Part shown: in pieces, positions 4,032 to 41,191 of the stretch
How the letters are laid out: the number at the start of each line of letters is the position of its first letter
How positions within the stretch are numbered: the first letter of the stretch is position 1
Source of the DNA: Nitrospirae bacterium GWC2_57_13
GTDB lineage: Bacteria > Nitrospirota > UBA9217
Reading direction: 5' to 3'
Assembly: GCA_001805055.1 (NCBI GenBank)
Contig: MHDZ01000018.1
Span: 44,787-88,859, forward strand
Length of the DNA: 44,073 nt
Made by a program: the position numbers and the translations under genes
Notes under the pieces: model-generated
Databases searched by the model: none
What the model was told of the DNA's origin: nothing
What the model saw: the letters and a program-made list of their open reading frames with translations, nothing else

Positions 4032-4406
4032 TTACCCCACCAGGATCGCCTGAGCCACGGCATACCCCTCGTCATGGGAATAACTGAGCATGATCTGCTT
4101 CACGCCCTTCAGGTCGGCTAGGTCCTTTACCCGGCCCGCAATGTTCACAATGGGACCGCCGCCCTCACCGTGAAGCACTTCGATGTCCGTCCATTTCATG
4201 CCGGCGCTCAATCCCGTTCCGAAGGCCTTCAGCAGGGCCTCCTTCGCAGCAAAACGCGCCGCGTAATGCTGGGCAGGATATTTCTGGCGCGCGCAGTATG
4301 CCCGCTCACGCTCGGTGAAAATACGCTCAAGAAAAGATGCATTATTCGATCCTGCTTTGTCAATGCGGCTGATCTTCACAAGGTCGATGCCGATTCCGAT
4401 GATCAT
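4032..4406 (-). CDS. acpS: Holo-[acyl-carrier-protein] synthase
   Basis: Transfers 4'-phosphopantetheine from CoA to apo-ACP, activating fatty-acid synthesis. The 124 residues start MIIGIGIDLVKISRI, with the metal-binding Asp in GIDLV, and carry the conserved RFAAKEALLKAFGTG helix with its catalytic Glu and Lys. Length is normal for the trimeric AcpS type. The ATG at 4404-4406 follows a GGGGGGT tract about four bases upstream. It lies downstream of pdxJ, a pairing conserved in many bacteria, and upstream of nnr. Confidence 0.96.
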   Translation of the reverse strand: MIIGIGIDLVKISRIDKAGSNNASFLERIFTERERAYCARQKYPAQHYAARFAAKEALLKAFGTGLSAGMKWTDIEVLHGEGGGPIVNIAGRVKDLADLKGVKQIMLSYSHDEGYAVAQAILVG

Positions 4407-4425
4407 GTGACCCCCCGAATACTGC

Positions 4426-4509
4426 GCATAGAGCAGAGTGCATAGAGTATCTTACGTCCCATGCTCTGCGCCTCAGGCCCTATGCTCTATGCCCCATGCC
4501 CTATGCTAT
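4426..4509. repeat. Heptamer (ATGCTCT-type) short tandem repeats in both orientations
   Basis: Seven consecutive heptamers fill 4461-4509 (ATGCTCT, GCGCCTC, AGGCCCT, ATGCTCT, ATGCCCC, ATGCCCT, ATGCTAT). At 4426-4453 four heptamers of the complementary sense occur (GCATAGA, GCAGAGT, GCATAGA, GTATCTT). The whole acpS-pdxJ gap is thus an inverted heptamer array. The same heptamer family recurs at 24648-24675. It resembles the heptameric STRR repeats known from cyanobacteria in style, not in sequence. Confidence 0.8.
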
Positions 4510-4511
4510 CT

Positions 4512-5228
4512 TCAAATATGAATCAATGCAGCCATTTCCCGCACCGCCCGCTCCATGCCCACGAGGGACGCGCGGGAAATGATGCTGTGACCGATATTCA
4601 ACTCTTCGATCTCAGGGAGATCAGCGATCAAGGCGACATTCCGGTAGTTCAAGCCGTGTCCGGCGCCGACGCGCAACCCCAGGCTCGCCGCCAGTTGGGC
4701 TGCCTCGGCGATCTTCACGTACTCCCGCTCCCGATCTGCTTCATTCTTTGTGTTCGCATAGGTCCCTGTGTGGATCTCGACCCACTGGGCGCCGGCCTTC
4801 TTTGACGCCGCGATCTGGTTCTCATCAGGATCGATAAAAAAACTGACAAAGATCCCCGCCTTCACGATAGGAGCGATATACTCCCGCAGGACATCCATCC
4901 GGCCGGCCACGTCCAGTCCGCCCTCGGTCGTCAGCTCTTCCCGCTTCTCGGGAACGAGCGTTACAAATTCCGGCTTCACATCAAGGGCGATGCGCCGCAT
5001 CTCTTCCGTCGCGGCCATCTCGAGGTTCAGTTTGGTCTGGACCACCTCCCGCAGCACGCGCAGGTCACGGTCCTGGATGTGACGCCGGTCTTCCCGGAGA
5101 TGCACAATGATGCCGTCAGCTCCGGCCAGTTCCGCCAGCACTGCAGCGGCAACCGGGTCCGGCTCAACACCCCGCCGAGCCTGGCGAAGCGTGGCAATAT
5201 GATCGATATTCACCGATAACCGTGGCAA
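4512..5228 (-). CDS. pdxJ: Pyridoxine 5'-phosphate synthase
   Basis: Condenses 1-deoxyxylulose-5-phosphate with 3-amino-2-oxopropyl phosphate to form pyridoxine 5'-phosphate, in the DXP-dependent vitamin B6 route. The TIM-barrel motifs are all present: [17 protein letters not shown] near the N-terminus, [28 protein letters not shown] and GAGHGLN. I place the start at a TTG (5226-5228) behind a GGGAGG with a five-base spacer, giving 238 residues, the family norm; the longer open frame to 5459 would add a non-homologous N-terminus. It heads the operon that continues with acpS. Identity is secure, the start very likely. Confidence 0.95.
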
Positions 5229-24647: not shown

Positions 24648-24704
24648 GCATAGAGCATGGCGCATAGGGCGTGAACCTCTCTGTTCTCTGTTCTCTGTTC
24701 TCTG
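24648..24704. repeat. GCATAGA and TTCTCTG heptamers between alr and mlaE
   Basis: Heptamers GCATAGA, GCATGGC, GCATAGG, GCGTGAA run from 24648 to 24675; a second set (CTCTCTG, then TTCTCTG three times exactly) fills 24677-24704 and abuts the alr stop codon. The first set belongs to the family at 4426-4509. The exact triple repeat suggests recent slippage. Confidence 0.8.
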
Positions 24705-26230: not shown

Positions 26231-26402
26231 GAAACAAAAAGGGACAGTCCCCGTAAATTCCAGGGGGACTCAGAAACAAAACAGGGACAGTCCCCTTAGA
26301 TGCCAGGGGGACTGGAACCAAAACAGGGACAGTCCCCTTAGATGCCAGGGGGACTGGAACCAAAACAGGGACAGTCCCCTTAGATGCCAGGGGGACTGTC
26401 CC
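26231..26402. repeat. Tandem array of GGGACAGTCCCC palindromes (42-bp unit) behind the giant gene
   Basis: Four units begin at 26241, 26284, 26326 and 26368 (spacing 43, 42, 42). Only the unit at 26368-26402 is a complete palindrome; in the others the right arm stops after GGGGGACT and is joined to a GGAACCAAAACA-like linker. The three later units share the loop TTAGATGCCA, the first differs (GTAAATTCCA). Read on the minus strand, the array begins six bases after the stop of the giant gene: one full hairpin, then three shorter ones, the last followed by TTTTTGTTT. It would act as a series of terminators. The rest of the gap 26056-26408 shows no gene. Confidence 0.88.
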
Positions 26403-26408
26403 TTTCTT

Positions 26409-29400
26409 CTACTTTATCACCCTGATGATGTCCACCCCGTCAAAGGTCGTTGTTCCCACCGTGCCGGAAACATGGACCGGCACCTTCTCGCCCTGGAGCA
26501 GCAGGGCGATCACGTCGCTGCGCTTGAACTTGACCATCAGGTCGGGGATGCCGTCCTTGTCGTAGTCTCCCACGGAGCAGGGCTTCTGCACTGCAGGGAT
26601 GACCCCTTCCAGCCGGACCGATGAAACGTCGATGTCCTTCACGGCATAACCGGCAGGGAGTTCGATGTACACGACGACCCAGGTGCCGTTGCTGCCCTGA
26701 TTCAGCGTATTCGGGTCGAAATCGATCGTGGCGTTGATCGACGTTACGGGCAGATGGACCGAGAAGGTGGCCATGTCCATCCATTCCCCATAGCGTTCGC
26801 CGTCATGGGCCTGGGCCCGCCACCGGTACTTGGTCTTGTTCAGCAGGGCTTCAGGCACCTGAAGGGACGTGATGCCCGAGTCGCTTTCAGGAACTCCCGT
26901 GATCTTCTGCACCAGAACGCTTTCGATATAGATCTCGAAATCATAGGTCAACTGGTCGCTGTCCGGGTCTTCAGCGTTATGGATCGACAGCGCAGGCCTG
27001 AGGGTGTCAACGCTGCCGCCCTCAACAGGGGCATTGAGCCGCGGCGCTTCAGGCGCGTCATTTGCCGCGTTCACCATGAAGGAGGCGGGCGTCATCCAGC
27101 CGCTCTGCGCTTCTCCGTCAAAGGCCCGTGCTTGCCAGTAGTAGGTCTGATTTTCGTTCAGCGTCACGGGTACTGTCCACGAAGTCACTCCGTTGCCTCC
27201 CTCATCCCTCATCCCACTTCCCACAATGAGATTCTCGAGACCAGCGTCTGCGTAGACCTGGAACTCGTAGGTAAGAACGTCTCTGTCCGGATCGATCGAA
27301 TTATGCACGGACAGGGTTGGTGTGGATACGTTCACCCCTGATCCAGGTGACGGATTAGCAAGGATCGGCGCTGCAGGAGCGTCGTTTGCGGTGTTCACGA
27401 AGAAACTGATGTCTTGCGACAAGTCGCTCTCGGCAAAACCGTCGTACGCTTTGGCGCGAACGTAATAGACGGTGTTGTCCGCCAGATCAGCAACGCGCCA
27501 AAGGGTGGTGCCCAGGCCTTCGGCGATCGGGCCTGAGCTGCGGAGATCAGGCGAATCAAAGGTCCTGACCCGGTCGACCTCGAAGATATACGTAAGACCG
27601 GTGGAGTCGGGGTCTGTGCTGTTCGTTACGATGATGTCCGCGGACTGCGAAGCGATCTCCTCGTTGTTCAGGGGCGCGATGATCGCCGGCGCAGATGGTG
27701 CGTCGTTCGTTGTGTTGACGAAGAAGGAGGCCGTGGTCATCCAGTCGCCTTCAACGAGCCAGTCATCGGCCTGAACGCGCCAGTAGTAGGTGGTGTTTTC
27801 CAGAAGCTGGACAGACACCTGCCAGGACGTTGTTCCCGGGCCTTCGGCTACGCCCGTGATAGAATCAACGATTTGGGTGAATTCCGGGTCAAGGGCAATG
27901 TCGAAGTTATAGGTCAGGCCAGTGCTGTCCGGGTCGCTTGCATTGTTCACCGTCAGGACCGGCTGCAGGGTGTCCACATCCGAGCGGTCCGCGGGGCTTG
28001 CGAGCGTGGGCGCCGTGGGTGGATCGTTCTCCACGTTCACCCGGAAGGATGCGGTCGGGGTCATCCATTCTCCGTAGAGCCAGCCATCGAAAGCCCTGCT
28101 GCGCCAGTAGTAGGTCTGGTTCTCGATCAGCGCCACAGGCACTGTCCACGCAGTCAAGCCGTTGCCTCCCTCATCCCTCATCCCACTTCCCACAATAAGA
28201 TTCACGAGGCCCGTGTCTGCATAAACCTCGAACTCGTAGGTCAGGGTGTCTTGGTTCGGGTCAGAGGCGTTGTTCACCACAAGGACCGGCGTGAGGGTCC
28301 CGACGTCGCTGCCCATCGGGGGAGATGACAGGGACGGGGCCGTGGGCGCGCCCTGCACACGGAAGTAGGTCCCTGCAAGGGTCTCCGTGATAGGGCCATT
28401 CGGTCCGGGAAGGGACGCCTGCAGGACCACGAGATAATCCTTGGCGCTGTAGCCTGTGGTGTCTACCAGAGCCTCTGCTGTGGCGCCGGCGCCCATGGGC
28501 AGCGATGCCTGGCCGGGTATCGTGGCGTAGACGGCCGATTCCGCGGCATCGACGATCAGGACGGATATGCCGATTTCGGCAAGGTCTGTGTTCCCCTTGT
28601 TCAAGATGCTGTAAGTCGCGTTCACCGAATCGCCGGACAGCACGTTCTGATTCTGAACGGAAATGGCGCCTGACAGCGCAGCCGAGGGCTTGATGTCGCT
28701 GCTGATCACGATCGATGCGCTGCCTGTGGAAAGGATTGTGCCGGAAGCGTCTTTGACTTCGAGTGTCACCGGATAGGTCCCAGGAGCAAACGTGCCGGTG
28801 TTCCAGTAGGTCGTGAAGGTGAATGACGCCCCAGGCATGAGGGTGGAAACGGTCTTCGTATCTACGAAGACCGGACCGTTTAAACCGTTTGAACTGTTTA
28901 ATCCGATTGTCAGCTTCGCTGACAGGTTCTCAAAGATGTAATTCCCACTCAAACTCGCGATCGTGGAAGTTATCGCAACGGCCTCGTTCGGACTGTAGGA
29001 GATCTTGTCGGTGACCGGGACGGCGCTTGTACCCGTGTCAGGCAGGATGTCAAAAGATGCCGTGCTCTCTGCGGCCACAGTGCCGCCATCCGAAAGCTGA
29101 ACGTGTACTTTGTAGCCGCCGGCATAGGTTGTTCCCGTATTCCAGGTGAAGTTGAACATCCGGCGCGGAAGCGCCTCAGGCGCTCCTAACACCGGATGGA
29201 CCTCAGGAGAAGCAAGTGATACGCTTATGCCGAGGTTTCCGAGACCATTTTCGTAGAGACCCGTTGCGATCACGGATTTCGTACCGAAGGTCCCGTCTCC
29301 GTTGCCCGAGTATACTTCTACGTAACCCGAAAAAACCGCGGCAATGACATCCAGATGGCCGTCACCATTCACGTCGGCTGTGTCGGTGGTCGAATAATTG

Positions 29401-32400
29401 CCGATGTCCAGCGACGGGATAAGTACTGGCGCGCCAAAGGTGCCGTCTCCCTTCCCTTTGAAGAAATACGCGTCGCCCGTATGGGTTTTATTCGCTATGA
29501 TGTCTACCTTCCCGTCTTCATCAAAATCCCCGGCAGTGACGCTGTCCGTCGCTGTAGTGCCGCCGCCCGGTATACCCAGATTTTCAGGCATCAGAAACGT
29601 CCCGTTGCCGTTCCCGCGGTACACATAGACCGGCCCGCTAGCGCCGGTGACAATGAGATCCGGCAATCCGTCATGGTCCACATCAGCCGCGGTCTTTCCG
29701 ATGAAAACGGCATCAATGGGCCAGGCTGCCGGCGCAGGAATGGTCGTCTGGGTAAAGGTCCCGTCTCCGTTGCCGGTGTACAGATACAGAGTGTTCTTGG
29801 AGCCGCCGACGACAAAATCCTTCTTCCCGTCTCCGTTGAAATCCGCTGATGCCATATCGTAGAGGTAGGTGATGGTCCCAATCTGCCCGATGCTTTTCCT
29901 GGGCAAGAAAGTGTTGGTGCCGTCCGCCCTGTTCTGGTAATAGTAGAGTTCCTTGGCGAACCCGGAGCCGGTGACGATATCCGCGAACCCGTCGCTGTTG
30001 AAATCGTCGAGCACGATGCCCCGTGTAATATCGTTATTCGGGGAAACGTCATCTATAAACCTCGGGGCCGAGAACGTTCCGCTTCCCAGGTCTTCCTGCA
30101 CGTAAATCCTGCCCTTGTCGTCGCTGAGCGCAATGAGACGGCCCGAGAGGGGGATTTTCGTATTAGTTGAAGGCTGCTTCGCGCCGTAGTCCGTCGTGTC
30201 AAAGAACAGGTAAAAGTGGCGCGGGACATCGGCAGTCGTGAGGCCGTCCATGAGCCAGGTCACTTTTGACGGCATGGCCTGTACAAAGGCCGCCTTTGCC
30301 TGTTTTTCGCCGATGGCATTCCCCATACCGTCATATTCCAGTACCCGGATTGAATCAGTATCAATGGTCCTGCCTGCTACGCCGAGCGATGCCAGCAGGC
30401 CGTCGAAGTCCGCAAAGACGAGCGCCACCGCATCGTTCACGTTCCTGGTTTCGGTTACCGTCACCGGCACGCGGTAGCCCCAGCCTTCCATACCCCAGGG
30501 TTCGAGGTCGCTGACGGTGAAGGCTGCAACGTGGGCGATCTGCCGGCCATTGACGGTCTCTACGAAAATGTTCCCTGAGCCTGACCACGCCGCGCCGCCT
30601 TCGTTCTTGACGGCGAGATTGATGCCCACGACGGACTGGGCCTGATACTCGCCTCTGTCCGTCATCACCCCCACGGAAAGCTTTTTCCGGTTCACTGCAA
30701 GACGTTTCATCGCGGTGTTGTTCGTCTCCGCGAGTTCGTCGATGATGTTAGCCGGATCGATGACAACGTGGAAATCGTTCGTATCCGGGAGCCCGAGCGT
30801 CTGGATCGTGAAATCGAGCATGGCCTCGCCGCCCAGTTCGAGCATCTGGCTGATCAGCCTGGTCCCCAGGAGCGCGCCGTTGCTTTGGGGATCACCCCGA
30901 TACAGGCGCACCGGAACAGCGCCGACAGCGGCCCCCCTGTTCCTGATCCGGGCCGTGAGCACGACGGTCTCCCCTTCGGTTGCCGTCTCTTTCGTCAGGG
31001 TGATATCGGAGGCCAATATGGCCAGGTCCGGCTTCATGGGCGCGGTAATGTTTGCCGTGAGCATCACGGTATTGTCCGATTCGTTGGATTCTTCGACCGT
31101 ATTGAGCGGGTCTGCAACGAGGTACAGCTTGTTCGGACCCGCATGGCCGAGGGTGTCCCAGGCAAAGGCCACGGTCGACGTCTGCTTCGGAGCCACCACG
31201 GCATGGTATACGCCTTGTCCGATCTGCGTTCCGTTGTTCGCAGGATCGCCGAGGTATGCCCGCACGAGCACGTCCCGAATGGCCTTGTTGCTTTCGTTGG
31301 TCAATGTCGCGCTGAGTTCCACGAGCTGTCCTTCCGTGGGCGCGGCCGGCGTGAGTACCGGTGCGGACAGGGCCAGGTTGTTCAGAGGCGTTGCCAGGCC
31401 GGCGGGATAGCCGTAGGACGTGGTCATCCCGTAGCCGTGTACATAGACGCCGACGGGCTTGTCCGCAACGATCACGTGTTCGCCTTCGTTGACGGACAGC
31501 AGCGCATAGGACGCCGCATCCGTCAGCGGGAGCCAGCCGTCCGTGACTGTGACGCCGTCGAGCGTTACCGCCGTTTCCGGTTCCGGCGCGATGATCGTGA
31601 CAAAGTTCCCCTGTTTGCTGTACTCGGGAAAGAGAGAATTGTACCCGCCGTAGCCGGGGAAACTGTAGAAGCGGTACGCTGTCCGGAGCTTGTCCGTGGG
31701 GATGAGGGTCATCTGGAACGGGTCGCCCACTTTGGCCGACATGATTCCCTTGGCATACTGGGCCACGGAGATCGGCTGACTGCCCGTGATGCGCAGGGCC
31801 TCTTCCTGCTCGAACTCGGTCCACTGGCCTGCTTGCAGGGTGAATGTTCGCGCCGTGTGGTACTGATTTTTCACGACAACCTGGGTATTGTCCCGGACAG
31901 CCATGATTCTGAACACGTCGCCGCTTCCCGGTGAGTAAAGGGGCGCGCTGTAGTAGTCCGTGCCGAGCAGCGATACAGGCAGCATTTGTTCAAGCAAAAC
32001 GTCGCCATAACTTATTTGGATTGACGTTTCGCGGCTCGAGGTGACGAAAGCGCGGTAGGCACTTCCGAAAACGCCGATAGGACGGTTGCTCGTGATCCGG
32101 GTTCCCGTCAGATCCACACCCGTATTGCCCGTATTGTAGACATAGGTCTGGCCCTGCTCCAGCCGGATGGAGCTGCCGCCGATGTTCACCTCAGTGTTGT
32201 TTTCAGCAGCGACGATCGTATAGGCCCCGCCGGGAAACCAGAATTGAGACACGCCGGGGTAATAGGTCATGACATAGTATTCCGTGCCGAGCATATGCAC
32301 GGGCAGGGCGCGGTAGCTGTCGTCGCCGTCTTTCACGCTGTCCGGCGCGTGAAAGACGACCGAAACCTTCCGGTCGCTCTGGATGCGGATCCCCTTGTTC

Positions 32401-35400
32401 TCGACGACGTTCTTTGTATCGTTGACCTCGCTCGAGGCCATGAGCGGAATGACCGCGGGCGCGCCGGGCGCCACGTCGACGGTCCAGGTGTGATAGGACG
32501 TCTGGTACAGGGGAACGGCCGTGGTGACCGTCACCCGGGCCGCTTCGTCCGACTGGATCACGATCTTGGCGGTGTCGTAGTAAGTGGGGGGCCAGGCAAG
32601 CCAGAAGTCCGTGCCCTCGTGAGTCGCGCCGCCGGCGATATGCTCGCCGAACACGGCGCTCACCCGGTTGTTGGAGGGATCAGCGTCCTGGGGGGCTACG
32701 TTCTCGATGACCGCCGTCAGCGTGACGCCGTCGCCCGGATAGACGTAGCCCGGGAAGACGGCCGAGGTGCGCCCGCCGGCGTAGAAGGTGAGGGCCTGCT
32801 GCCCGATCAGGCGGCCCTGCTCCGGTGTGCCCTCGTACAGAGAAAGCGTTCCGGACACGGTCACCGCGCCGGTGCCGTAAATGGTGACGTTCACCGAGAC
32901 ACTGTCGCCCGCAGACGGCGCGGCCGGCGAGAGCAGAAGATCGCCGTCGCCCACGGACAGGTCGACCTTGTACGTAGGTATGGTCTTTCGCGCACTGTTG
33001 TTGTTCTCGTCGGTTTCCTGGTGCTTCTTCCCCGGATCCACCACGACGTAGATTTCCGGAACGCCCAGAGTCATGGTGAACGGCACGGTCACCGTGCCGA
33101 CGCTGACCTGGTTGATATATAGTCCGCTTGCCCTGATCAGCGCGCCGCCCGAAGCCGGGTTGCCGTTGTAAAAGGACACGTCGGCATACAGTAGCTCGCT
33201 GCCGGAATTGTGCACCGTAGCCGAGATGTTCACCGAGCTGCCGGCAAGGGGAAGGGCCGGCGAAAGAGTGATGTCCGCGTCCGAGATCGAGAGGTCCAGG
33301 GGGCACGAGGACCTGACGGTAACGGGAAACACCGCGCGGTTGTTGGCTTCGTTGAATTCCTGCACGATGTTGCTTGGGTCGGCGATAACGTGCAGCATGT
33401 GCTCGCCCACAGTGAGATAGCCCAGCGACGCATACCCGGTGCGCGTCCCCATGGCGGTGATCGTCGTGCTGCCATCGGGAAACAGGTAGAACGTGCCGAC
33501 GCGCGCGCCGCTGGACTCAGGCGCCCCGTTCCACAGTTCGAAGGGCAGATCCGTGTATCCATTCTTTGCATTGCCGCCGTAGTTGGCAACGCTCGCCGTG
33601 ATGAACAGTTTTGACCGTGGCGTGACGCAAGCCGGAAAGGAGCTTATATCCGCTGCCGTAATGCTGAGGTCAGGCAACATGGCCACCGGGTCATATCCCC
33701 GGTATGCTTTGTTGTTCGTCTCATCGGTTTCTACGATGAGGCCGCCCGGATCGACGACAGCGTAGATCAGCGGATTGTCCGTGGGAATCGTCCAGGTGAA
33801 GGCCGCACTCTGGCCGGTCAGAGCCGGTACGGTGATCGGGGTCGTACCGATGAGCGAACCGCCTGCCGCGGGATCGCCGCGATAGAACGATACGGACGTG
33901 TCCACATGCCTGCTGCCGCTGTTCGTTACAACGGCCGTGATAGTGAAAGCCTTCCCCGGCTCCGCGCCCGAGGGGAAGAGAAAGCCGATGTTCGAAGCCG
34001 TGATTGCAAGGTCCGTGGGCTTCGATCCTTCCACGGTGATCGTGATCATGCCCTGGTTGTTCGTTTCGTCCAGTTCCGGGATGCTGTCCTCGGGATCGAT
34101 TACGAGATAGAATGCCTGCGTCCCCGCAGGGCCCCCCGTGATCGTGGCCGTGAGCGGGTAGGAAGCGCGGCCCTGCAAAGATGTGATGGTGAAGTCGTTC
34201 ACGACCGTGCCGCCGGACCCGGGCAGACCGCGATAGACCCGCACCGGGACATTCGTCGCTTCCTTCTCTCCGAGGTTTCTGATGTTGATGGTGATGTTCA
34301 AGGGCTCATCCACCGTGGGCGTGACCGGAGCGTAGGTCGTTTCCGTGTTGTCGATGAAAAGATCGGATGGAGAGAAGATGGTATAGTAATTCACCGCTGT
34401 GTTGTCGGTCTCGACAAGCTCGTCAATCGTGTTGAGCGGGTCGATAATGGCATGGACCGCGTGGCGGTCCGTATCCGTGGTCATGGTATGGACCACCTGG
34501 GCCGTGCCGGTACCCCCCGGCGCAATAGAAGGAAGCGTTATGAGCGAACCGATCTGAAGCCCTCCTGCGGCCGGATCTCCGTCAAAAAGCTGAAGAACGA
34601 CGCTGTCTGCGGCGGCAAGGCCGGTGTTATGGATCATCACGCTGATCGTGACAGCTTCACCGGGGACAGGCGTGGTTTGGGAAAAAGAAATGTCCGCTGA
34701 TGTGATCGTAAGATTCGGCTTCACCTTTGCCATCGCCTGGAGGGCCAGGGCCGTGGAATAGGGATCGTCGTTCCAGGAGCCGTTGGAGGATTGCGAAGCC
34801 GCGAGGTAGGCAATTGCATTCTGTAGGGGCAAGGCACCGCCTTGCCCGCTCTCGATCAATGAAATAATGGATAAGGCCGTTTCGTATATAGTGGACGGAC
34901 TCGACCCGAATCCGCCATCGGTGTTCTGTTTGGTCAGAAGATAGGCCTTTGCTGTGTCTATGGAACCTTGAACTATGAACTGTGAACTGAAGTTTGACAA
35001 CGTCCGCAGCACTATGGAAGTGACATACGCATTACTCGGATCGCCTGCTTCCGCCGTTGTCGTCGGCCGGTACCCCCACCCCCCGTCTGCATTCTGACTG
35101 CTCGTGAGAAAAGCCAGGCCTGCATTGACGACAGAAAGATCGGAATAGTTCGCGGCCTTCAAAGCCTGGAGCGCGAGGGAGGTGTCGAGGGGGTTGCTTG
35201 AATCACCTTCTTTTAAGCCCCACCCGCCGTCGGAATATCTGCTGTTTATCAGAGTCGATATTAACGTGCTTGCATCCTGCCCTGCATTTGTCAGAGAAAA
35301 TATTTTCCGCGACAATTCATCCATAGTTGTCGCGTCCTGCGAGCTTAACCAGCTTATACCGTTGCCATAATTTATCCCAGCAGGATCAAGATATTTCAGC

Positions 35401-35582
35401 GTACCAAGAACGTCGGTGCTGTAGACAAAGGCCAAATCTGACTGGACGCCCCAACTGCCGTCGGCGTTTTGGCTGGCGGAAAGCCATGCTGTGCCATCAG
35501 ATGTTGCGGCGCTCTGAGCAGAGCAAGGAATCGACCATAATGAGCATGCGATGAGAACGGCCAGGATAAAAATCTTTTTCAT
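26409..35582 (-). CDS. Giant secreted multidomain surface protein (3057 aa)
   Basis: Exported (signal MKKIFILAVLIACSLWSIPC, cut near SAQ). Rough domain order: prenyltransferase/squalene-cyclase-type repeats 25-285 (SQNADGSWG, SQNADGGWG, QNTDGGFG); several CARDB domains 285-985 (DISFSQTTPVPGEAVTISV, ending DETNN); an IgGFc-binding-like domain 985-1395 (GTDFWLAWPPTYYD, FPGGAYTIVAAENNTEV); CARDB 1405-1630; a DUF2341-like part 1697-1815; FG-GAP/VCBS repeats 1820-2117 (DFNGDGKKDFVVGG, DVNGDGHLDVIAA) with Ca-binding Asp loops; strand-rich modules 2124-2413; five Fn3-like modules 2414-2937; and a C-terminal domain with a DYDKDGIPDLMVKF loop. It is adhesin- or matrix-like. No sortase or PEP-CTERM tail is seen. 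The ATG at 35580-35582 follows GGTGGAG. It is fourth in a minus-strand unit of secreted proteins. Several loops are encoded by repeat DNA. Confidence 0.88.
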   Translation of the reverse strand: MKKIFILAVLIACSLWSIPCSAQSAATSDGTAWLSASQNADGSWGVQSDLAFVYSTDVLGTLKYLDPAGINYGNGISWLSSQDATTMDELSRKIFSLTNAGQDASTLISTLINSRYSDGGWGLKEGDSSNPLDTSLALQALKAANYSDLSVVNAGLAFLTSSQNADGGWGYRPTTTAEAGDPSNAYVTSIVLRTLSNFSSQFIVQGSIDTAKAYLLTKQNTDGGFGSSPSTIYETALSIISLIESGQGGALPLQNAIAYLAASQSSNGSWNDDPYSTALALQAMAKVKPNLTITSADISFSQTTPVPGEAVTISVMIHNTGLAAADSVVLQLFDGDPAAGGLQIGSLITLPSIAPGGTGTAQVVHTMTTDTDRHAVHAIIDPLNTIDELVETDNTAVNYYTIFSPSDLFIDNTETTYAPVTPTVDEPLNITINIRNLGEKEATNVPVRVYRGLPGSGGTVVNDFTITSLQGRASYPLTATITGGPAGTQAFYLVIDPEDSIPELDETNNQGMITITVEGSKPTDLAITASNIGFLFPSGAEPGKAFTITAVVTNSGSRHVDTSVSFYRGDPAAGGSLIGTTPITVPALTGQSAAFTWTIPTDNPLIYAVVDPGGLIVETDETNNKAYRGYDPVAMLPDLSITAADISSFPACVTPRSKLFITASVANYGGNAKNGYTDLPFELWNGAPESSGARVGTFYLFPDGSTTITAMGTRTGYASLGYLTVGEHMLHVIADPSNIVQEFNEANNRAVFPVTVRSSCPLDLSISDADITLSPALPLAGSSVNISATVHNSGSELLYADVSFYNGNPASGGALIRASGLYINQVSVGTVTVPFTMTLGVPEIYVVVDPGKKHQETDENNNSARKTIPTYKVDLSVGDGDLLLSPAAPSAGDSVSVNVTIYGTGAVTVSGTLSLYEGTPEQGRLIGQQALTFYAGGRTSAVFPGYVYPGDGVTLTAVIENVAPQDADPSNNRVSAVFGEHIAGGATHEGTDFWLAWPPTYYDTAKIVIQSDEAARVTVTTAVPLYQTSYHTWTVDVAPGAPAVIPLMASSEVNDTKNVVENKGIRIQSDRKVSVVFHAPDSVKDGDDSYRALPVHMLGTEYYVMTYYPGVSQFWFPGGAYTIVAAENNTEVNIGGSSIRLEQGQTYVYNTGNTGVDLTGTRITSNRPIGVFGSAYRAFVTSSRETSIQISYGDVLLEQMLPVSLLGTDYYSAPLYSPGSGDVFRIMAVRDNTQVVVKNQYHTARTFTLQAGQWTEFEQEEALRITGSQPISVAQYAKGIMSAKVGDPFQMTLIPTDKLRTAYRFYSFPGYGGYNSLFPEYSKQGNFVTIIAPEPETAVTLDGVTVTDGWLPLTDAASYALLSVNEGEHVIVADKPVGVYVHGYGMTTSYGYPAGLATPLNNLALSAPVLTPAAPTEGQLVELSATLTNESNKAIRDVLVRAYLGDPANNGTQIGQGVYHAVVAPKQTSTVAFAWDTLGHAGPNKLYLVADPLNTVEESNESDNTVMLTANITAPMKPDLAILASDITLTKETATEGETVVLTARIRNRGAAVGAVPVRLYRGDPQSNGALLGTRLISQMLELGGEAMLDFTIQTLGLPDTNDFHVVIDPANIIDELAETNNTAMKRLAVNRKKLSVGVMTDRGEYQAQSVVGINLAVKNEGGAAWSGSGNIFVETVNGRQIAHVAAFTVSDLEPWGMEGWGYRVPVTVTETRNVNDAVALVFADFDGLLASLGVAGRTIDTDSIRVLEYDGMGNAIGEKQAKAAFVQAMPSKVTWLMDGLTTADVPRHFYLFFDTTDYGAKQPSTNTKIPLSGRLIALSDDKGRIYVQEDLGSGTFSAPRFIDDVSPNNDITRGIVLDDFNSDGFADIVTGSGFAKELYYYQNRADGTNTFLPRKSIGQIGTITYLYDMASADFNGDGKKDFVVGGSKNTLYLYTGNGDGTFTQTTIPAPAAWPIDAVFIGKTAADVDHDGLPDLIVTGASGPVYVYRGNGNGTFLMPENLGIPGGGTTATDSVTAGDFDEDGKVDIIANKTHTGDAYFFKGKGDGTFGAPVLIPSLDIGNYSTTDTADVNGDGHLDVIAAVFSGYVEVYSGNGDGTFGTKSVIATGLYENGLGNLGISVSLASPEVHPVLGAPEALPRRMFNFTWNTGTTYAGGYKVHVQLSDGGTVAAESTASFDILPDTGTSAVPVTDKISYSPNEAVAITSTIASLSGNYIFENLSAKLTIGLNSSNGLNGPVFVDTKTVSTLMPGASFTFTTYWNTGTFAPGTYPVTLEVKDASGTILSTGSASIVISSDIKPSAALSGAISVQNQNVLSGDSVNATYSILNKGNTDLAEIGISVLIVDAAESAVYATIPGQASLPMGAGATAEALVDTTGYSAKDYLVVLQASLPGPNGPITETLAGTYFRVQGAPTAPSLSSPPMGSDVGTLTPVLVVNNASDPNQDTLTYEFEVYADTGLVNLIVGSGMRDEGGNGLTAWTVPVALIENQTYYWRSRAFDGWLYGEWMTPTASFRVNVENDPPTAPTLASPADRSDVDTLQPVLTVNNASDPDSTGLTYNFDIALDPEFTQIVDSITGVAEGPGTTSWQVSVQLLENTTYYWRVQADDWLVEGDWMTTASFFVNTTNDAPSAPAIIAPLNNEEIASQSADIIVTNSTDPDSTGLTYIFEVDRVRTFDSPDLRSSGPIAEGLGTTLWRVADLADNTVYYVRAKAYDGFAESDLSQDISFFVNTANDAPAAPILANPSPGSGVNVSTPTLSVHNSIDPDRDVLTYEFQVYADAGLENLIVGSGMRDEGGNGVTSWTVPVTLNENQTYYWQARAFDGEAQSGWMTPASFMVNAANDAPEAPRLNAPVEGGSVDTLRPALSIHNAEDPDSDQLTYDFEIYIESVLVQKITGVPESDSGITSLQVPEALLNKTKYRWRAQAHDGERYGEWMDMATFSVHLPVTSINATIDFDPNTLNQGSNGTWVVVYIELPAGYAVKDIDVSSVRLEGVIPAVQKPCSVGDYDKDGIPDLMVKFKRSDVIALLLQGEKVPVHVSGTVGTTTFDGVDIIRVIK
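27196..27230. repeat. CATCCCT heptamers in Fn3-like module 4
   Basis: CCTCCCT, CATCCCT, CATCCCA, CTTCCCA, CAATGAG in frame, encoding IVGSGMRDEGG on the minus strand at about residues 2784-2796. A nearly identical tract is at 28165-28199. Confidence 0.8.
28165..28199. repeat. CATCCCT heptamers in Fn3-like module 1
   Basis: CCTCCCT, CATCCCT, CATCCCA, CTTCCCA, CAATAAG in frame at about residues 2461-2473. It differs from the copy at 27196-27230 only in the last heptamer, so the two modules arose by duplication or conversion after the tract was gained. Confidence 0.8.
28876..28902. repeat. CCGTTTAAA nonamers in the giant gene
   Basis: CCGTTTAAA, CCGTTTGAA, CTGTTTAAT follow each other in frame; the minus strand encodes LNSSNGLNG at about residues 2227-2236, a three-residue period as expected for 9-bp units. 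Confidence 0.7.
34822..34848. repeat. GTAGGGGCAAGG hairpin element inside the giant gene
   Basis: A perfect 8-bp stem (GGGCAAGG 34827-34834, CCTTGCCC 34840-34847) with loop CACCG, in frame, encoding GQGGALPLQ in the prenyltransferase-type region. It has the look of a dispersed intergenic palindrome captured in a coding region. Confidence 0.65.
34963..34997. repeat. GAACTGT heptamers inside the giant gene
   Basis: GAACCTT, GAACTAT, GAACTGT, GAACTGA, AGTTTGA run in frame; the minus strand encodes SNFSSQFIVQG at about residues 195-207, between two alpha-alpha repeat units. Confidence 0.7.
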
Positions 35583-35682
35583 AGAGGCTCCACCGTCTAT
35601 TGAGTTGTATTTTAAATCAGAAAACATCTGTATTCTGCGAAAGGCTGCTCTCATCAATTACTGAACATAACATTATCATTGA

Positions 35683-36588
35683 CTACTCTTGCAACATCCT
35701 CGCCATCATCACATCCAACGTGTTATGTTCAAAAAAATAAACATTCCCTTTTTTATCTATATATGTCCTAGTCGTCGGCTCGATATTTATACTGCACCTA
35801 GAAAGCTCTTTTCCGCCTGCATTATTCAGAACAGCTATTGCGTTATCCTTCTTCATTCCGCCTACCTCAGACAAAATGTCTAAGGAGTAACCGGTAAATC
35901 TTATAAATCGTCTCAGAAAATCCAGCTTTGTTCCCCCAAAATCGTCGAACTTAATACCCCTCGTTAATAATTTCCCATCCCGGGAGTAGATGCCACCTAA
36001 AGCCATTTTCTGACTGTAATCACTATAAACATATATTTTTCCATCCTTGTCTAAATCGAGATACTCAGCCTCATATCCGCGACCCGCCGCTTCCCAAAAG
36101 TCCTTGCCGAGACCCAACTTGTCACTCAAATAATTTATCGTCTTAACCAGTTTGCCGCTAGGATTATACATTTCTATTCTATACTCGTATAAATTAATCA
36201 CATATAGATTATCGTGCACATCAACAGCCATATCCTTAATGACATCGCCAAAAGGCTGCTTATTGCCCCGCAAGGGTTTTTGCAACGCAAACTTCATTAA
36301 AAATCTGCCGTCCTTATCGAATTTCAAAATTCGATAATTAACTGAATCACCGATGTAAATATTCCCCTTGCTATCTAAAATGAGTGAACGCGGTTGATTT
36401 ATGTCTTCCGGAGATAAGACCTCACCATTCTCCTCCGGAACATACTGTCCATAATGGATTGCAGTGCCCGCTTTCCATTCGACAAGCTTCACCGTGCTAC
36501 ATTTAGACGTAGTCTCTGCGGCCAAGGCGATCGACAATAGCATAAAAGTACAATACAAAAGCAGCAAAATGGTTTTAAATGTTTTCAT
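35683..36588 (-). CDS. Secreted NHL/beta-propeller-like protein
   Basis: A 301-residue exported protein (signal MKTFKTILLLLYCTFMLLSIALA). The body has propeller-type strand repeats: NQPRSLILDSKGNIYIGDSVNYRILKFD, VIKDMAVDVHDNLYVINLYEYRIEMYN, EYLDLDKDGKIYVYSDYS and TYIDKKGNVYFFEHN, as in NHL/6-bladed propellers that bind proteins or ligands. Two Cys (CSTV near the mature N-terminus, CSIN near the end) could pair. Codon use is AT-rich, unlike the giant gene downstream. No ribosome site is obvious before the ATG at 36586-36588; it starts 33 bases after the preceding propeller gene, so coupling is likely. Function unknown; a partner or protector of the upstream NlpC/P60 protein is possible. Confidence 0.75.
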   Translation of the reverse strand: MKTFKTILLLLYCTFMLLSIALAAETTSKCSTVKLVEWKAGTAIHYGQYVPEENGEVLSPEDINQPRSLILDSKGNIYIGDSVNYRILKFDKDGRFLMKFALQKPLRGNKQPFGDVIKDMAVDVHDNLYVINLYEYRIEMYNPSGKLVKTINYLSDKLGLGKDFWEAAGRGYEAEYLDLDKDGKIYVYSDYSQKMALGGIYSRDGKLLTRGIKFDDFGGTKLDFLRRFIRFTGYSLDILSEVGGMKKDNAIAVLNNAGGKELSRCSINIEPTTRTYIDKKGNVYFFEHNTLDVMMARMLQE

Positions 36589-36621
36589 TTAAAGTACGAT
36601 CATTCGTAAACGTCTAAGCGA

Positions 36622-37536
36622 TTATTTAGCAAACATTGGGCTTCTTCCATCTTCAATAACTCTACTTTTCTTGCCGGACACAAGATCAAGATGACTGATG
36701 TCTAAGTCCGGATTTTCAGTCATATCTTCGTAATACAAATTGTTGTCACCCGCAAAAGCAAATTTAGCTGGAGAGAATCCGGGCTGCATTTTTATTTCCC
36801 GAAATTGTTTCAGAGACCGAACATCGTAAATCTTAATGCTATGGCTATTCCCTATGGCTAAGGTCTTATTATCCAACCATGATGAAAATATGCCACTTTC
36901 GATCTCTTTGACACTTTGTTTTTTGTCGATCATATTCATCAAATATACACGCCATCCATTACCCCTAGATGATGCGAAGGACACCCAACGTCCATCAGGT
37001 GACCACTGCACAGCAGTATGATGATATGGACTGTCTTTAGTTAAATCGACCTTTGCCTTTGTATTAAGATCAACAATCCATATATGCCTTACTTTTCTTG
37101 TAGCGGCTTGGGTTTTATTAAACTCTTTTTCAGATTCACTAATATAAATAACCTTATCATTTGTCGGAGAAATAGTAGGATTGCTCATATCTGTTTCTAC
37201 TTCCATTAAAAATACTTCTTCGTTAGTTTTCGCATTGATGATATAAAGCTTGTTATTTTTGATAGCAGCAATTTTATTATAATCAGACGATACGCTAAAA
37301 TTAACAACGTCGTTTGCTTGAATAAATTGAATATTTTGCTTCGTTGCTGGATCAAACAACCATATATTACCAGTCTTTATATACAATAACTTATTTTTTA
37401 AAAATGTCTCTTTCTTTGAAACAGTGCTTATCGTGGAGCCGGCGCTCAGGCCTGCATGACAAACGGGCAACGTAGAAAATACAAAATAAATTATTACAAA
37501 AACACCTAATCTAAACTTCGCCAGTTCTGCCATCAT
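36622..37536 (-). CDS. Secreted TolB-like beta-propeller protein
   Basis: A 304-residue exported protein (signal FRLGVFVIIYFVFSTLPVCHA). It contains WD40-like/PD40 repeats of the TolB type: GNIWLFDPATKQN, KLYIINAKTNEEV, NPTISPTNDKVIYISESE, HIWIVDLNTKAKVDLT, AVQWSPDGRWVSFASSRGNGWRVYLMN and HLDLVSGKKSRVI. The SPDGRWVSFASSRGNGWRVY pattern is classic. DNA is AT-rich. Start is ATG 37534-37536, or the next codon, ATG 37531-37533, which has better spacing from AAGGAG. It begins seven bases after the stop of the transglutaminase-like gene, so the two are coupled. Role unknown; TolB proper acts with Pal, but no pal or tolA is nearby. Confidence 0.78.
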   Translation of the reverse strand: MMAELAKFRLGVFVIIYFVFSTLPVCHAGLSAGSTISTVSKKETFLKNKLLYIKTGNIWLFDPATKQNIQFIQANDVVNFSVSSDYNKIAAIKNNKLYIINAKTNEEVFLMEVETDMSNPTISPTNDKVIYISESEKEFNKTQAATRKVRHIWIVDLNTKAKVDLTKDSPYHHTAVQWSPDGRWVSFASSRGNGWRVYLMNMIDKKQSVKEIESGIFSSWLDNKTLAIGNSHSIKIYDVRSLKQFREIKMQPGFSPAKFAFAGDNNLYYEDMTENPDLDISHLDLVSGKKSRVIEDGRSPMFAK

Positions 37537-37543
37537 TCTCTCC

Positions 37544-40500
37544 TTATTTTGGATTCCTTATTGTTCCAAAGCCGATAAATAATTGGCCCGAAGATTTTGG
37601 CACACTATCCCATTGCTCTTCAGTACAGGTATACGGCTTTTTGCCCTCCTTGCAGCCAGATGTACCCGAACATTTTTCTACACCCCTACAGGTACAACAG
37701 GATGGTTTGTCTAATGTCCGCAAGGGTGTATTATAAGGACTCTTGCTCGATTTATAATCGTTCGTAACATTCATCGGGTTGTCTGACACAACACCTTTAC
37801 CTCCAGCATGGATAAAGTTTAATGTTCCCTTTCCGTCAATGTTGACTTTTACTACAATACCAACATGTGTCAAGTCATCATCTTTCTCACAATTGCAATT
37901 ATAATCAAGAGTATTGTCCCAGAAAACCATATCGCCTATTATCAGTTTATCATCGGTAGTTCGTATGCTTTCATTAATTTTTAGTTTTTTGGCTATTTCA
38001 TAAAAATAATAGACACCATTTTTTCCGTCTGCGTATGGAATGCCGTTCTTCTTCATAAGATTCTCGCCACAACCCGCCCACTCGTCCAAACAAATTCCTG
38101 CAGCTTTATATGCCTTTCTCACCAAACCAACACATTGGCCTATAGTCTCGTATTTATAACCCTTAAAATCCTCCGCTTCCTTTACAATCAATTCACCAAT
38201 TTCAAGTTCTGCAGCTGTAATAATAGTCCTCCGTGTCTGCGGATCAATACTATCTTTTACCCAACCCAGAGGTTCCTTATGAAGTTGCACAATCTGCATC
38301 CCATCATTCTGACTCGTACTATCGCTTCCCGCGAGCCCGCCGGAAATCATATACGCCCCTGAACCGGTCACGTCTTTTATGAAATATCCGACGCCGTTCC
38401 AGTCGTTTATCTGGACGTTCGCCTGTGGTATCGTTACCTCTTTGCCCGCATTAACTGCATTCTGAATTTCAGTCTTTATTTCAGAAGCTACCTGAAGCAA
38501 TGGGAGTGTCTGACCGATGTTTGATGAATTAATATAGTGAATGGGTGTCCCGTTCGCCATAGCGACCTGTATTGCCCGCACAGCCGAGACCGACGAGAAA
38601 CCGTCGATTCTCTCAAAGATGTCGTGCTCATGATAAGAACTGACGAGCCCGGCAATGTCCATATAAGCCTTCTCTTTGGCCACATTGCCGTCCTTCGCAA
38701 CCGCAATTACCCTGTCCATTGCAACATCCATATTGATTCCCGATGGCGTCGCTGTTCTGGGTATCAAAAAAAGATGCGAAACCGACAGCGTGAACGAAGT
38801 AATGCCCTCTGAAAGCGTCCTTGTTACGACGGTGTTGAACAATTTCGCTCCTGATCTGTATATCTTGTCGTTTGCAAGGAAATAGGTTACGGCGCGAAGA
38901 TAGAGCAGTTCCCCGATCAGGTCGTCGTTCCCGAGCGTTCCGGCAGTTTCTGAGAGCACATTCGTCGTGAGTGTGTAGTTTCTTTTGCCGAGGACATTTT
39001 CGTTGATGCCCTGCAAGTCAAGCCCTATCGCATAGTAGGCGCCGGCAATGAGCTTCTTCTGAACGGTTTCGGACAGTCCCTTGGGCTGCGAGAGCTGCAA
39101 CATTAATGCCTGTTCTGCGCCCATCATCGCTGCGTCGCCTGACAATTTGATGATGCCGTCAATCTTCAGGACCGGTTTCAGATTCAATAAATACGCGGGT
39201 ACTCCGTAAATATAGCCTCCGTAGTTGCTGATCAGGGCTTCATCTGAAGACGTCGCCGGTATATATGACAGAGTGATTCTTTTTCCGGCTATTTCAGGCA
39301 TTGTGAATGCAAGTGACGCTCCCGGCAGAGAGAATACGGCTTTCGCTTGAGTGTTGGCAGGAACGCTCGCAAATACACCACCTCGGACGATAGTTTTGTA
39401 CGGCAGCGTCGAGGAAAGAAATGGATATCTTTCTTGCTTTATTTCCCGGTAGCCTTTCACGTCTATGATCGACGTCTCCGGCATATTTGCATCAAGATAT
39501 TCTTGTATCTGGCTCTGGTAATAGTGTACGGGGTTCTGGCTTTGGACCTGACTCAGATAATCGTTCTGGCTGAATGACACCGTCGGAGTAATGTCAAACC
39601 CCGCTGCGTACACATATTCCTTGAAGCTTCCGTCCATGGGGATCCAGGTCTTGATGCTTTGGTCCATGATGGCCCCGCGGTAGTTGCCGTAGGGAATGTA
39701 CGTCTCGACCCAGGTGTGCTCCATCTGCACCTTGGCGATCTTTGAGCCAACAATATATGGCTTAACCGGGATACCGCCGCTTGCCATAAGCGATGCTGCA
39801 GCCATTGGATCTGTGAAGCCACCCGCCCAGTTCAGAACTTTCTCAATGGGAACCTCGATGGTTCCATAAACGTACCGCGCGGGAATGTTAGAGGCGCGCA
39901 GCAGGGCAATAAGCAAACTTGCCGTATCGAATGCATTGCACTGCTGAGCCTGAAGGCACATATCCGCGCCCTGAATTGAGCCGTAGGTGGGCACAAATTC
40001 GATGTTGTTCCTGACCCATTCGTAGATCTTGACGGGATTGTTGCCGAGTTCCAGGGCCTTTGCCTGGATCTCCGGCGTGAACTGGACTTCGGGGGTCTGG
40101 GATAGGTCGGCTGCGGTGGGCAAGTCTGCTGCCGTGGCAGCAGCCAAGTTCAGAGTGCTGAGTTCGAAGTTCGGAGTTAGGTCATGCGCCACAGAACTCT
40201 CAGAGAGCACAGAGAAAGCGGTGACAGGGAGAATAGGCGACGGGGCGAGTGATGAACCACCCCTCACCTCAGCCCTCTCCTCTGATGGGCGAGGAAGCTG
40301 GAACGGAACGTCGCTGGCGATGTCGTTGTAAGCGAGTAGAATCCGTGAAGGGTCAGGCGTCAGGGGTGAGGCGGCAGAAAGAAGTTCGGAGTTATGAGTG
40401 CGGAGTGCGGAATTGAATTCACTTGTTGCCAAAATCCGGGCATATCCGTGTGGATCCGTGTCCGACAGTTTCGCCGTCCTCGGTGAACTCTGTGGTCTCT

Positions 40501-41191
40501 GTGGCGGAAAGTCCTTCTCGAATTCCTCCTTCTTCAACCTCGGCTCCCGCTCCTTGCCCTTCACGCTCCGGAACGGCAGGTTGTTCGGGTCCAGCGGCAC
40601 GTGCTTTGACGGGGCCTTGGTCTTGTCGAGATGAGCTTTGGCTCGTTTCAGGGCATCTTTCCCCTGCTTGCTGTATACTCTTTGCTGTTTACTTATCCCC
40701 TGTTTACTGTCTGCTGTATACTGTTCTACTTCACTGAGGTTCTTCTTCAGTTCAGCAAGATTATCCTCATAGTGCTTCACGAACTTGTAGTGCCGGTCCA
40801 GTATCTCCTGCGGCAGTTTGGTGTCCTTCAGCTTCTTCTCCGTCTCGGAAAATTCCTTCCGCAGTTCACTATCTAATGTCTCAATCTCTAATCTCTGCTT
40901 CGTGACCGCCTCTATCTCTCCAGCCGCATCCTCTCCCCGTCCTGCCTTCTCCTCGGCCTTCCCGACCTTCTCGCGGATCGTTTCGATGGCCTTCTCGAAC
41001 CTGTCGCCTGCTGTCTCAGCCACCCCCCTGCCTCCCCCCTTGCCAAGGGGGGACCGAGAGGGGTCCGCATTCCGCACTTGCTTCTTCTCTGCCGCATACG
41101 CGGCAATCGAATACAGCGGCATGTACGTCCAGCAGAAGAAGAACAAGGTGATGGCAGAGACAAATCTGGCGATTCTCAAAAAAGCGCGCAT
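37544..41191 (-). CDS. Secreted transglutaminase-like / NlpC-P60 two-enzyme protein
   Basis: A 1215-residue exported protein (signal in MRAFLRIARFVSAITLFFF, cut near AAYA). Residues 35-360 are a coiled-coil and low-complexity part largely built from repeat DNA. Residues about 370-540 form a transglutaminase-like domain with the triad Cys418 (QQCNAFDTASLL), His492 (MEHTWVETYIP) and Asp520 (WIPMDGSF). A long strand-rich middle (540-1000) follows. Residues about 1005-1140 look like NlpC/P60, with Cys1020 (GQCVGLVRKAYKAAG), His1109 (THVGIVV) and His1128 (FIHAGG), and a Cys-rich tail. Similar transglutaminase heads precede RHS or toxin tails in other bacteria. The C-terminal part is AT-rich. The ATG at 41189-41191 follows GAAGGA; the ORF's earlier start lacks support. 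Target is probably peptidoglycan or a protein; not shown. Confidence 0.82.
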   Translation of the reverse strand: MRAFLRIARFVSAITLFFFCWTYMPLYSIAAYAAEKKQVRNADPSRSPLGKGGGRGVAETAGDRFEKAIETIREKVGKAEEKAGRGEDAAGEIEAVTKQRLEIETLDSELRKEFSETEKKLKDTKLPQEILDRHYKFVKHYEDNLAELKKNLSEVEQYTADSKQGISKQQRVYSKQGKDALKRAKAHLDKTKAPSKHVPLDPNNLPFRSVKGKEREPRLKKEEFEKDFPPQRPQSSPRTAKLSDTDPHGYARILATSEFNSALRTHNSELLSAASPLTPDPSRILLAYNDIASDVPFQLPRPSEERAEVRGGSSLAPSPILPVTAFSVLSESSVAHDLTPNFELSTLNLAAATAADLPTAADLSQTPEVQFTPEIQAKALELGNNPVKIYEWVRNNIEFVPTYGSIQGADMCLQAQQCNAFDTASLLIALLRASNIPARYVYGTIEVPIEKVLNWAGGFTDPMAAASLMASGGIPVKPYIVGSKIAKVQMEHTWVETYIPYGNYRGAIMDQSIKTWIPMDGSFKEYVYAAGFDITPTVSFSQNDYLSQVQSQNPVHYYQSQIQEYLDANMPETSIIDVKGYREIKQERYPFLSSTLPYKTIVRGGVFASVPANTQAKAVFSLPGASLAFTMPEIAGKRITLSYIPATSSDEALISNYGGYIYGVPAYLLNLKPVLKIDGIIKLSGDAAMMGAEQALMLQLSQPKGLSETVQKKLIAGAYYAIGLDLQGINENVLGKRNYTLTTNVLSETAGTLGNDDLIGELLYLRAVTYFLANDKIYRSGAKLFNTVVTRTLSEGITSFTLSVSHLFLIPRTATPSGINMDVAMDRVIAVAKDGNVAKEKAYMDIAGLVSSYHEHDIFERIDGFSSVSAVRAIQVAMANGTPIHYINSSNIGQTLPLLQVASEIKTEIQNAVNAGKEVTIPQANVQINDWNGVGYFIKDVTGSGAYMISGGLAGSDSTSQNDGMQIVQLHKEPLGWVKDSIDPQTRRTIITAAELEIGELIVKEAEDFKGYKYETIGQCVGLVRKAYKAAGICLDEWAGCGENLMKKNGIPYADGKNGVYYFYEIAKKLKINESIRTTDDKLIIGDMVFWDNTLDYNCNCEKDDDLTHVGIVVKVNIDGKGTLNFIHAGGKGVVSDNPMNVTNDYKSSKSPYNTPLRTLDKPSCCTCRGVEKCSGTSGCKEGKKPYTCTEEQWDSVPKSSGQLFIGFGTIRNPK
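40148..41068. repeat. Cluster of repeat tracts within the transglutaminase-like gene
   Basis: In-frame tracts: heptamers at 40148-40182 (GTTCGGA type), 40384-40418 (GTGCGGA type), 40671-40726 (CTGTATA type, eight units) and 40869-40896 (AATCTCT type); nonamers at 40190-40216 (CACAGAG) and 40482-40508 (TGTGGTCTC); palindromes related to the 3736-3836 element at 40258-40293 and 41021-41068. They correspond to residues about 42-348 of the protein and alternate with Lys/Glu-rich coiled-coil sequence. Confidence 0.8.

Follow-up and report, generated by a model that had tools for sequence, protein, structure and literature searches.

In-frame dispersed repeats in the linkers of a predicted secreted transglutaminase-like protein from Nitrospirae

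Our analysis revealed nine repeat tracts that are read in frame within a single transglutaminase-like gene (P0001) of a Nitrospirae bacterium. The tracts belong to seven families, two palindromic (P1 and P2) and five of the heptamer type (H1 to H5), which have further copies elsewhere in the genome. They are confined to two linkers and one helix turn of a protein whose enzymatic part is conserved, and different repeats were found in the corresponding linkers of orthologues. We consider it quite probable that dispersed repeats were inserted or expanded in unstructured linker sequence and persisted where the frame stayed open, mostly as neutral filler. A preliminary description of the window (the whole stretch of 44,073 nucleotides analysed) had counted at least eight in-frame repeat segments from four families, and in this respect it was borne out and extended.

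Host gene and repeat tracts

The ORF P0001 (37544-41215, 1223 amino acids) is encoded on the minus strand, as are all features of the gene given below, on a contig of a 3.3 Mb genome. Judged by the starts of its orthologues, the real start is likely the ATG at 41191 (Met9). The protein is predicted to be secreted: a signal peptide is followed by a domain of four helices, which a long unstructured linker connects to a transglutaminase-like catalytic domain. Specifically, a signal peptide or membrane segment was recognized by inspection at residues 9-42 (41090-41191), with similar segments in the orthologues. Linker 1 separates this signal from the helical domain (residues about 69-237, 40505-41011), and linker 2 separates the helices from the transglutaminase core (Pfam PF01841, residues 380-528, 39632-40078), which is free of repeats. 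The match to the PF01841 profile scored 54.3 bits against a cut-off of 23. No NCBIfam family was assigned to the protein, and a search against solved structures returned the putative cysteine protease 3isr as top match (E 6e-4), which agrees with a transglutaminase-like core. An AlphaFold model based on 23 sequences (mean pLDDT 66) places helices at residues 69-93, 98-131, 136-170 and 177-198. Residues 49-65 and 239-349, where pLDDT is below 50, are probably disordered, with the low values fitting disorder and equally a shallow alignment depth.

Linker 1 carries a single tract, the palindromic P1 at 41022-41065, which is read as DPSRSPLGKGGGRGV. Linker 2 carries seven tracts, listed here in the direction of reading: CTCTGTG-type H3 heptamers (40476-40505, read as PPQRPQSSPRT), an H5 repeat of the ACACGGAT type (40433-40461, DTDPHGYARI), ACTCCGM heptamers of H1 (40381-40413, NSALRTHNSELL), TGACSCC heptamers of H4 (40345-40377, SAASPLTPDPSR), the palindromic P2 (40253-40297, LPRPSEERAEVRGGS), a second tract of H3 heptamers (40188-40216, FSVLSESSVA) and a 3' tract of H1 heptamers (40146-40181, DLTPNFELSTLNL). 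The remaining tract, H2 (CAGNNNN units, 40675-40724), lies at a helix turn and the start of helix 4. It is the sole repeat-derived part of the helical domain, which is otherwise conserved in the orthologues. The tracts are 27-50 nt long; P1 and P2 measure about 45 bp each and both fold as hairpins. The reading frame is unbroken through every one of the repeats.

The N-terminal third of the protein had initially been described as largely built from repeats. For the whole span 40148-41068 this is too strong, as repeats make up 107 of its 307 residues (35%), whereas the wording is apt for linker residues 240-362 with a share of 80 out of 123 (65%). A repeat origin of the TCTAATC-like stretch at 40872-40896 was not supported, because the orthologues conserve the helix that it encodes and the region has no other match in the genome, and the stretch was left out of the tract count. 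Here and in the first part of H2 the orthologues hold the corresponding peptides without a clear repeat, the outcome that the preliminary description had named as refuting its reading, and for these two places the reading fails.

The H2 heptamer tract

The segment 40671-40726 had been read as a clean array of eight heptamers with a seven-residue period that matches the coiled-coil heptads on both sides, and neither part of this reading was upheld. The tract reads CAGTATA CAGCAGA CAGTAAA CAGGGGA T AAGTAAA CAGCAAA GAGTATA CAGCAAG CAGGGG, with a one-base slip after unit four, and extends by eye to about 40660. The encoded SKQ motifs begin at residues 170, 175 and 182, that is with spacings of 5 and 7, and Tandem Repeats Finder favoured two copies with a period of 36 bp. 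A period of seven residues therefore applies to one step only and is no general property of the tract. In comparison with the nearest orthologue, L061 (68% protein identity to P0001), the tract is 36 nt longer, which equals 12 codons or five heptamers plus the slipped base. The peptide YTADSKQ from the first part of H2 aligns with SAVSGKQ or YAVGSKQ of the orthologues, and only about 12 residues are extra.

A coiled-coil origin of H2 was rejected on three grounds. The AlphaFold model places the tract from the end of helix 3 across a loop into the beginning of helix 4. The fraction of aliphatic residues at a/d positions, which would be hydrophobic throughout in a coiled-coil heptad tract, is 0.12 and thereby the lowest of all windows tested (preceding helices reach up to 0.75). 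Moreover, a difference of 12 residues is no multiple of 7. Having the poorest heptad pattern in the helical region, H2 does not provide a new coiled coil, and on the predicted structure it is best seen as a lengthened helix turn.

For this tract we see a little less than an even chance that it was not captured but arose on the spot through slippage within a CAG/AAG-rich coding stretch, with the 36-nt difference being a local duplication. Such growth would be limited to H2 and would not conflict with a capture of the remaining tracts. It would fit the CAG...GTAAGCGGTAAGCAG present at this site in L063 and L062, the three H2-like units that L061 holds at nearly ancestral length, and the two 36-bp copies reported by Tandem Repeats Finder, whereas close matches to H2 elsewhere in the genome, several of them outside predicted genes, argue for capture. 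Repeat DNA had also been put forward as a source of new spacer or coiled-coil protein sequence. As to spacers the proposal holds, since the two linkers are rich in in-frame genome repeats and vary between orthologues; as to coiled coils it fails, given an old helical domain that is free of repeats.

Repeat families elsewhere in the genome

BLAST searches with this region as query revealed further copies of P1, P2, H1 and H2 in the genome, and copies of H3, H4 and H5 were found within a 444-kb genome sample. Searches of this sample with the family consensus sequences (score of at least 15) gave 2-32 matches per family compared to 0-1 in reversed sequence, with H6, a family absent from P0001, as a noisier exception. 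The background counts are based on this sample of stretches plus genome searches, and the density of tracts outside P0001 might be overestimated since the sampled contigs were mostly known beforehand to hold matches. From these counts 0.08 tracts would be expected in 921 bp (P about 1e-14, a value that is descriptive only because the region was picked after being seen). When the complete gene was used as an unselected query against its own genome, all 22 non-self matches fell at nucleotides 151-963 of 3672, within the first quarter. The same 5' bias was seen, matches to paralogues aside, for the orthologues L063 in genome G001 and L083 in G002.

Outside P0001 the sample held 38 tracts, of which 27 were intergenic, 2 partial and 9 located in predicted ORFs, although coding sequence accounts for about 80% of the sample. 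Most of the nine ORF-located tracts resemble over-extended N-termini and only two are clearly internal. One of these is an in-frame ACTCCGA heptamer tract (LLTPNSEPRTLHS) inside the domain of a histone-deacetylase-like protein (L091, 3214-4257). The other, in-frame CTCTGCC heptamers between two matched profile stretches of a Memo-like (AmmeMemoRadiSam B) protein (L105, 12911-13774), is probably another in-frame capture within a conserved protein. The window itself contains a clean intergenic example, an array of TCTCTGT heptamers at 24678-24704. Also between genes, at 26231-26398, a 42-bp unit (GAAACAAAACAGGGACAGTCCCC...) is present in four copies arranged in tandem, and relatives of it, often as inverted pairs, were found in 6 of 20 sampled genome stretches.

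The mostly intergenic location of the repeats in this genome could also be taken to mean that they mark a pseudogene, i.e. that P0001 is decaying. A similar hint comes from the orthologue L065 of genome G005 (4150-4600), in which P1 separates a signal peptide in one frame from a mature protein in another; the switch lies inside P1, an element with long G-runs, and could reflect a genuine frameshift, a G-run of variable length or an error in the assembly. For P0001 we regard decay as highly improbable, given a frame that is intact over 1223 codons, a Pfam core scoring 54.3 against the cut-off of 23, and the conservation of both helical domain and core.

Linkers of the orthologues

The named relatives are Nitrospirota metagenome assemblies, and more distant orthologues stem from Geobacter, Geotalea and other Desulfobacterota-type bacteria. 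Across 22 orthologues the helical domain aligns without repeats, and the parts that vary are the two linkers and the turn that joins helix 3 to helix 4. Within 31 orthologous frames including P0001, which are not all independent since some are paralogues or come from overlapping genomes of origin (three stand in a row on one G002 contig), 27 of 31 tracts were located in the two linkers, three in the helical domain and one in the core plus C-terminus, counting the families H7, H8, V1 and S1 that were added once the orthologue linkers had been inspected. The two linkers make up 12.0 of the 76.5 kb (16%) of these frames, and the null gave 3 tracts. The excess was retained without P0001 (19 of 22 tracts in linkers, P 5e-13) and when the set was restricted to families defined from this genome (12 of 14, P 2e-8).

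Matching linkers of the orthologues hold other families: L005 has H7 and an element resembling P1, L065 has H1 in reverse, and L081 has a V1-type repeat. The linker families of L065 and L005 are multi-copy in their own genomes, with weaker support for L081. Some captures recur in other genera: L063 also has the 3' H1 tract, L065 has P1 at the same site and in the same orientation, and several orthologues have P2, variants of which occupy one site in different reading frames (L001, L062, L065, L083 and, by eye, L003). Their presence across genera means that some captures have lasted long, and selection may have acted on those that are shared. The comparison at each site returned lineage-specific linkers and some tracts common across genera, with no near-identical sequence among those compared. 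The linkers vary in length and content; at H2, which offers the cleanest case, the difference is confined to 12 codons, and the first part of the tract aligns.

In the Deltaproteobacteria-labelled orthologue L081 (4800-5560) linker 2 spans 237 residues with a long internal duplication and peptides of the VIPANTGIQ or TPAHAGVQ type, which from their sequence look like further translated repeats.

Origin and persistence of the tracts

The preferred explanation starts from linker 1, linker 2 and, less often, turns between helices as sites that would tolerate changes in length. Palindromic REP-like elements and period-7 heptamers would repeatedly have been inserted or copied into the linkers, or expanded there by slippage, and those copies that left the frame open could persist. 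A spread of heptamers by slippage and copying between tracts is plausible; to our knowledge no mover has been described for the heptamer families. The captured peptides would most likely be neutral filler that extends a flexible tether, and not a new coiled coil. We infer this insertion route and the neutrality of persistence, and the retention of the frame was observed directly.

A different view would be adaptive recruitment, with the linker as a site of diversification in which capture is favoured by a changed tether length or surface sequence of the secreted enzyme. The recurrence of tracts in the same linkers (at least one tract in 12 of 31 orthologous frames), the range of linker 2 from 31 to 237 residues, and the P2 site with its different variants and frames in several orthologues are all consistent with this. 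However, 31-42 linker residues suffice in Geobacter-type orthologues, and low-confidence, probably disordered sequence would let neutral insertions survive anyway, so that we consider adaptive recruitment very unlikely. Only slightly less unlikely, in our judgement, is that the linkers are true hotspots at which unrelated families were captured repeatedly across Nitrospirota and Desulfobacterota-type bacteria, with the captured sequence tuning the tether of the secreted enzyme.

Comparison with known repeat systems

In-frame capture of dispersed repeats is already established (PMC2229807, PMC2759123, PMC4679880), and what characterizes it was also found here, namely a dispersed family, an open frame and an unstructured site (pLDDT below 50, or a helix turn in the case of H2). 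According to two reviews that summarize the work of Ogata 2000, 2002 and 2005 (PMC2229807, PMC2996958), the Rickettsia palindromic elements (RPE), for which Wolbachia offers comparable protein-coding palindromes, are dispersed palindromic repeats that also occur between genes and are read in frame in conserved proteins, usually where these lack structure. P1 and P2 are likewise dispersed palindromes read in frame in unstructured segments, but with about 45 bp they fall short of the 105-146 bp of RPE (PMC2229807), which have terminal inverted repeats. A further difference to RPE are the five heptamer-array families, giving seven families in one gene and occupying the same linkers in orthologues.

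The heptamer families resemble the TAACTGA heptanucleotide repeats of marine Beggiatoaceae and cyanobacteria, which are mostly intergenic, sometimes occur in ORFs as LSVISYQ heptapeptides, and within proteins lie mostly at the edges or outside of known domains (PMC4679880). Those of P0001 also have a period of 7 and are mostly intergenic and sometimes in ORFs, but their units (ACTCCGM, CAGNNNN, CTCTGTG etc.) are different and degenerate, and several families lie adjacent in one internal linker. The enterobacterial elements RU-1, RU-2 and RU-3 are small repeats in frame within genes and have been suggested to give rise to new peptides (PMC2759123). In-frame retention of small repeats is thus common to both, whereas RU elements are MITE-like units of 103-168 bp and the tracts described here span 27-50 nt. 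With REP/RAYT systems P1 and P2 share a palindromic structure and dispersal, and P2 is sometimes found in inverted pairs (L032, L034 and L048). A link of P1 or P2 to the four Y1_Tnp matches of the genome was considered and rejected, as the flanking sequence retrieved for these genes (up to 1.5 kb) contained no copy of either element, in contrast to REP/RAYT. Among the papers searched, none treated heptamer repeats of Nitrospirae. What appears unusual is that a single gene has gathered seven families and that orthologues from several bacterial groups carry repeats at the same linkers.

The protein family offers a compact natural series, with linkers of 31-237 residues several of which are filled with identifiable repeat DNA. 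Such a series would allow one to ask how non-coding repeats turn into protein, how fast repeat identity decays, and whether captured linkers have any function. It also calls for caution, since bacterial peptides such as PRPSGERAGVRGG or LTPNFELSTLN can be translated repeats rather than motifs.

Elsewhere in the window, an ORF of 3082 residues (26409-35657) showed CARDB, IgGFc-binding, FG-GAP and squalene-cyclase-like matches, and is adjoined by two beta-propeller-like ORFs at 35683-37536.
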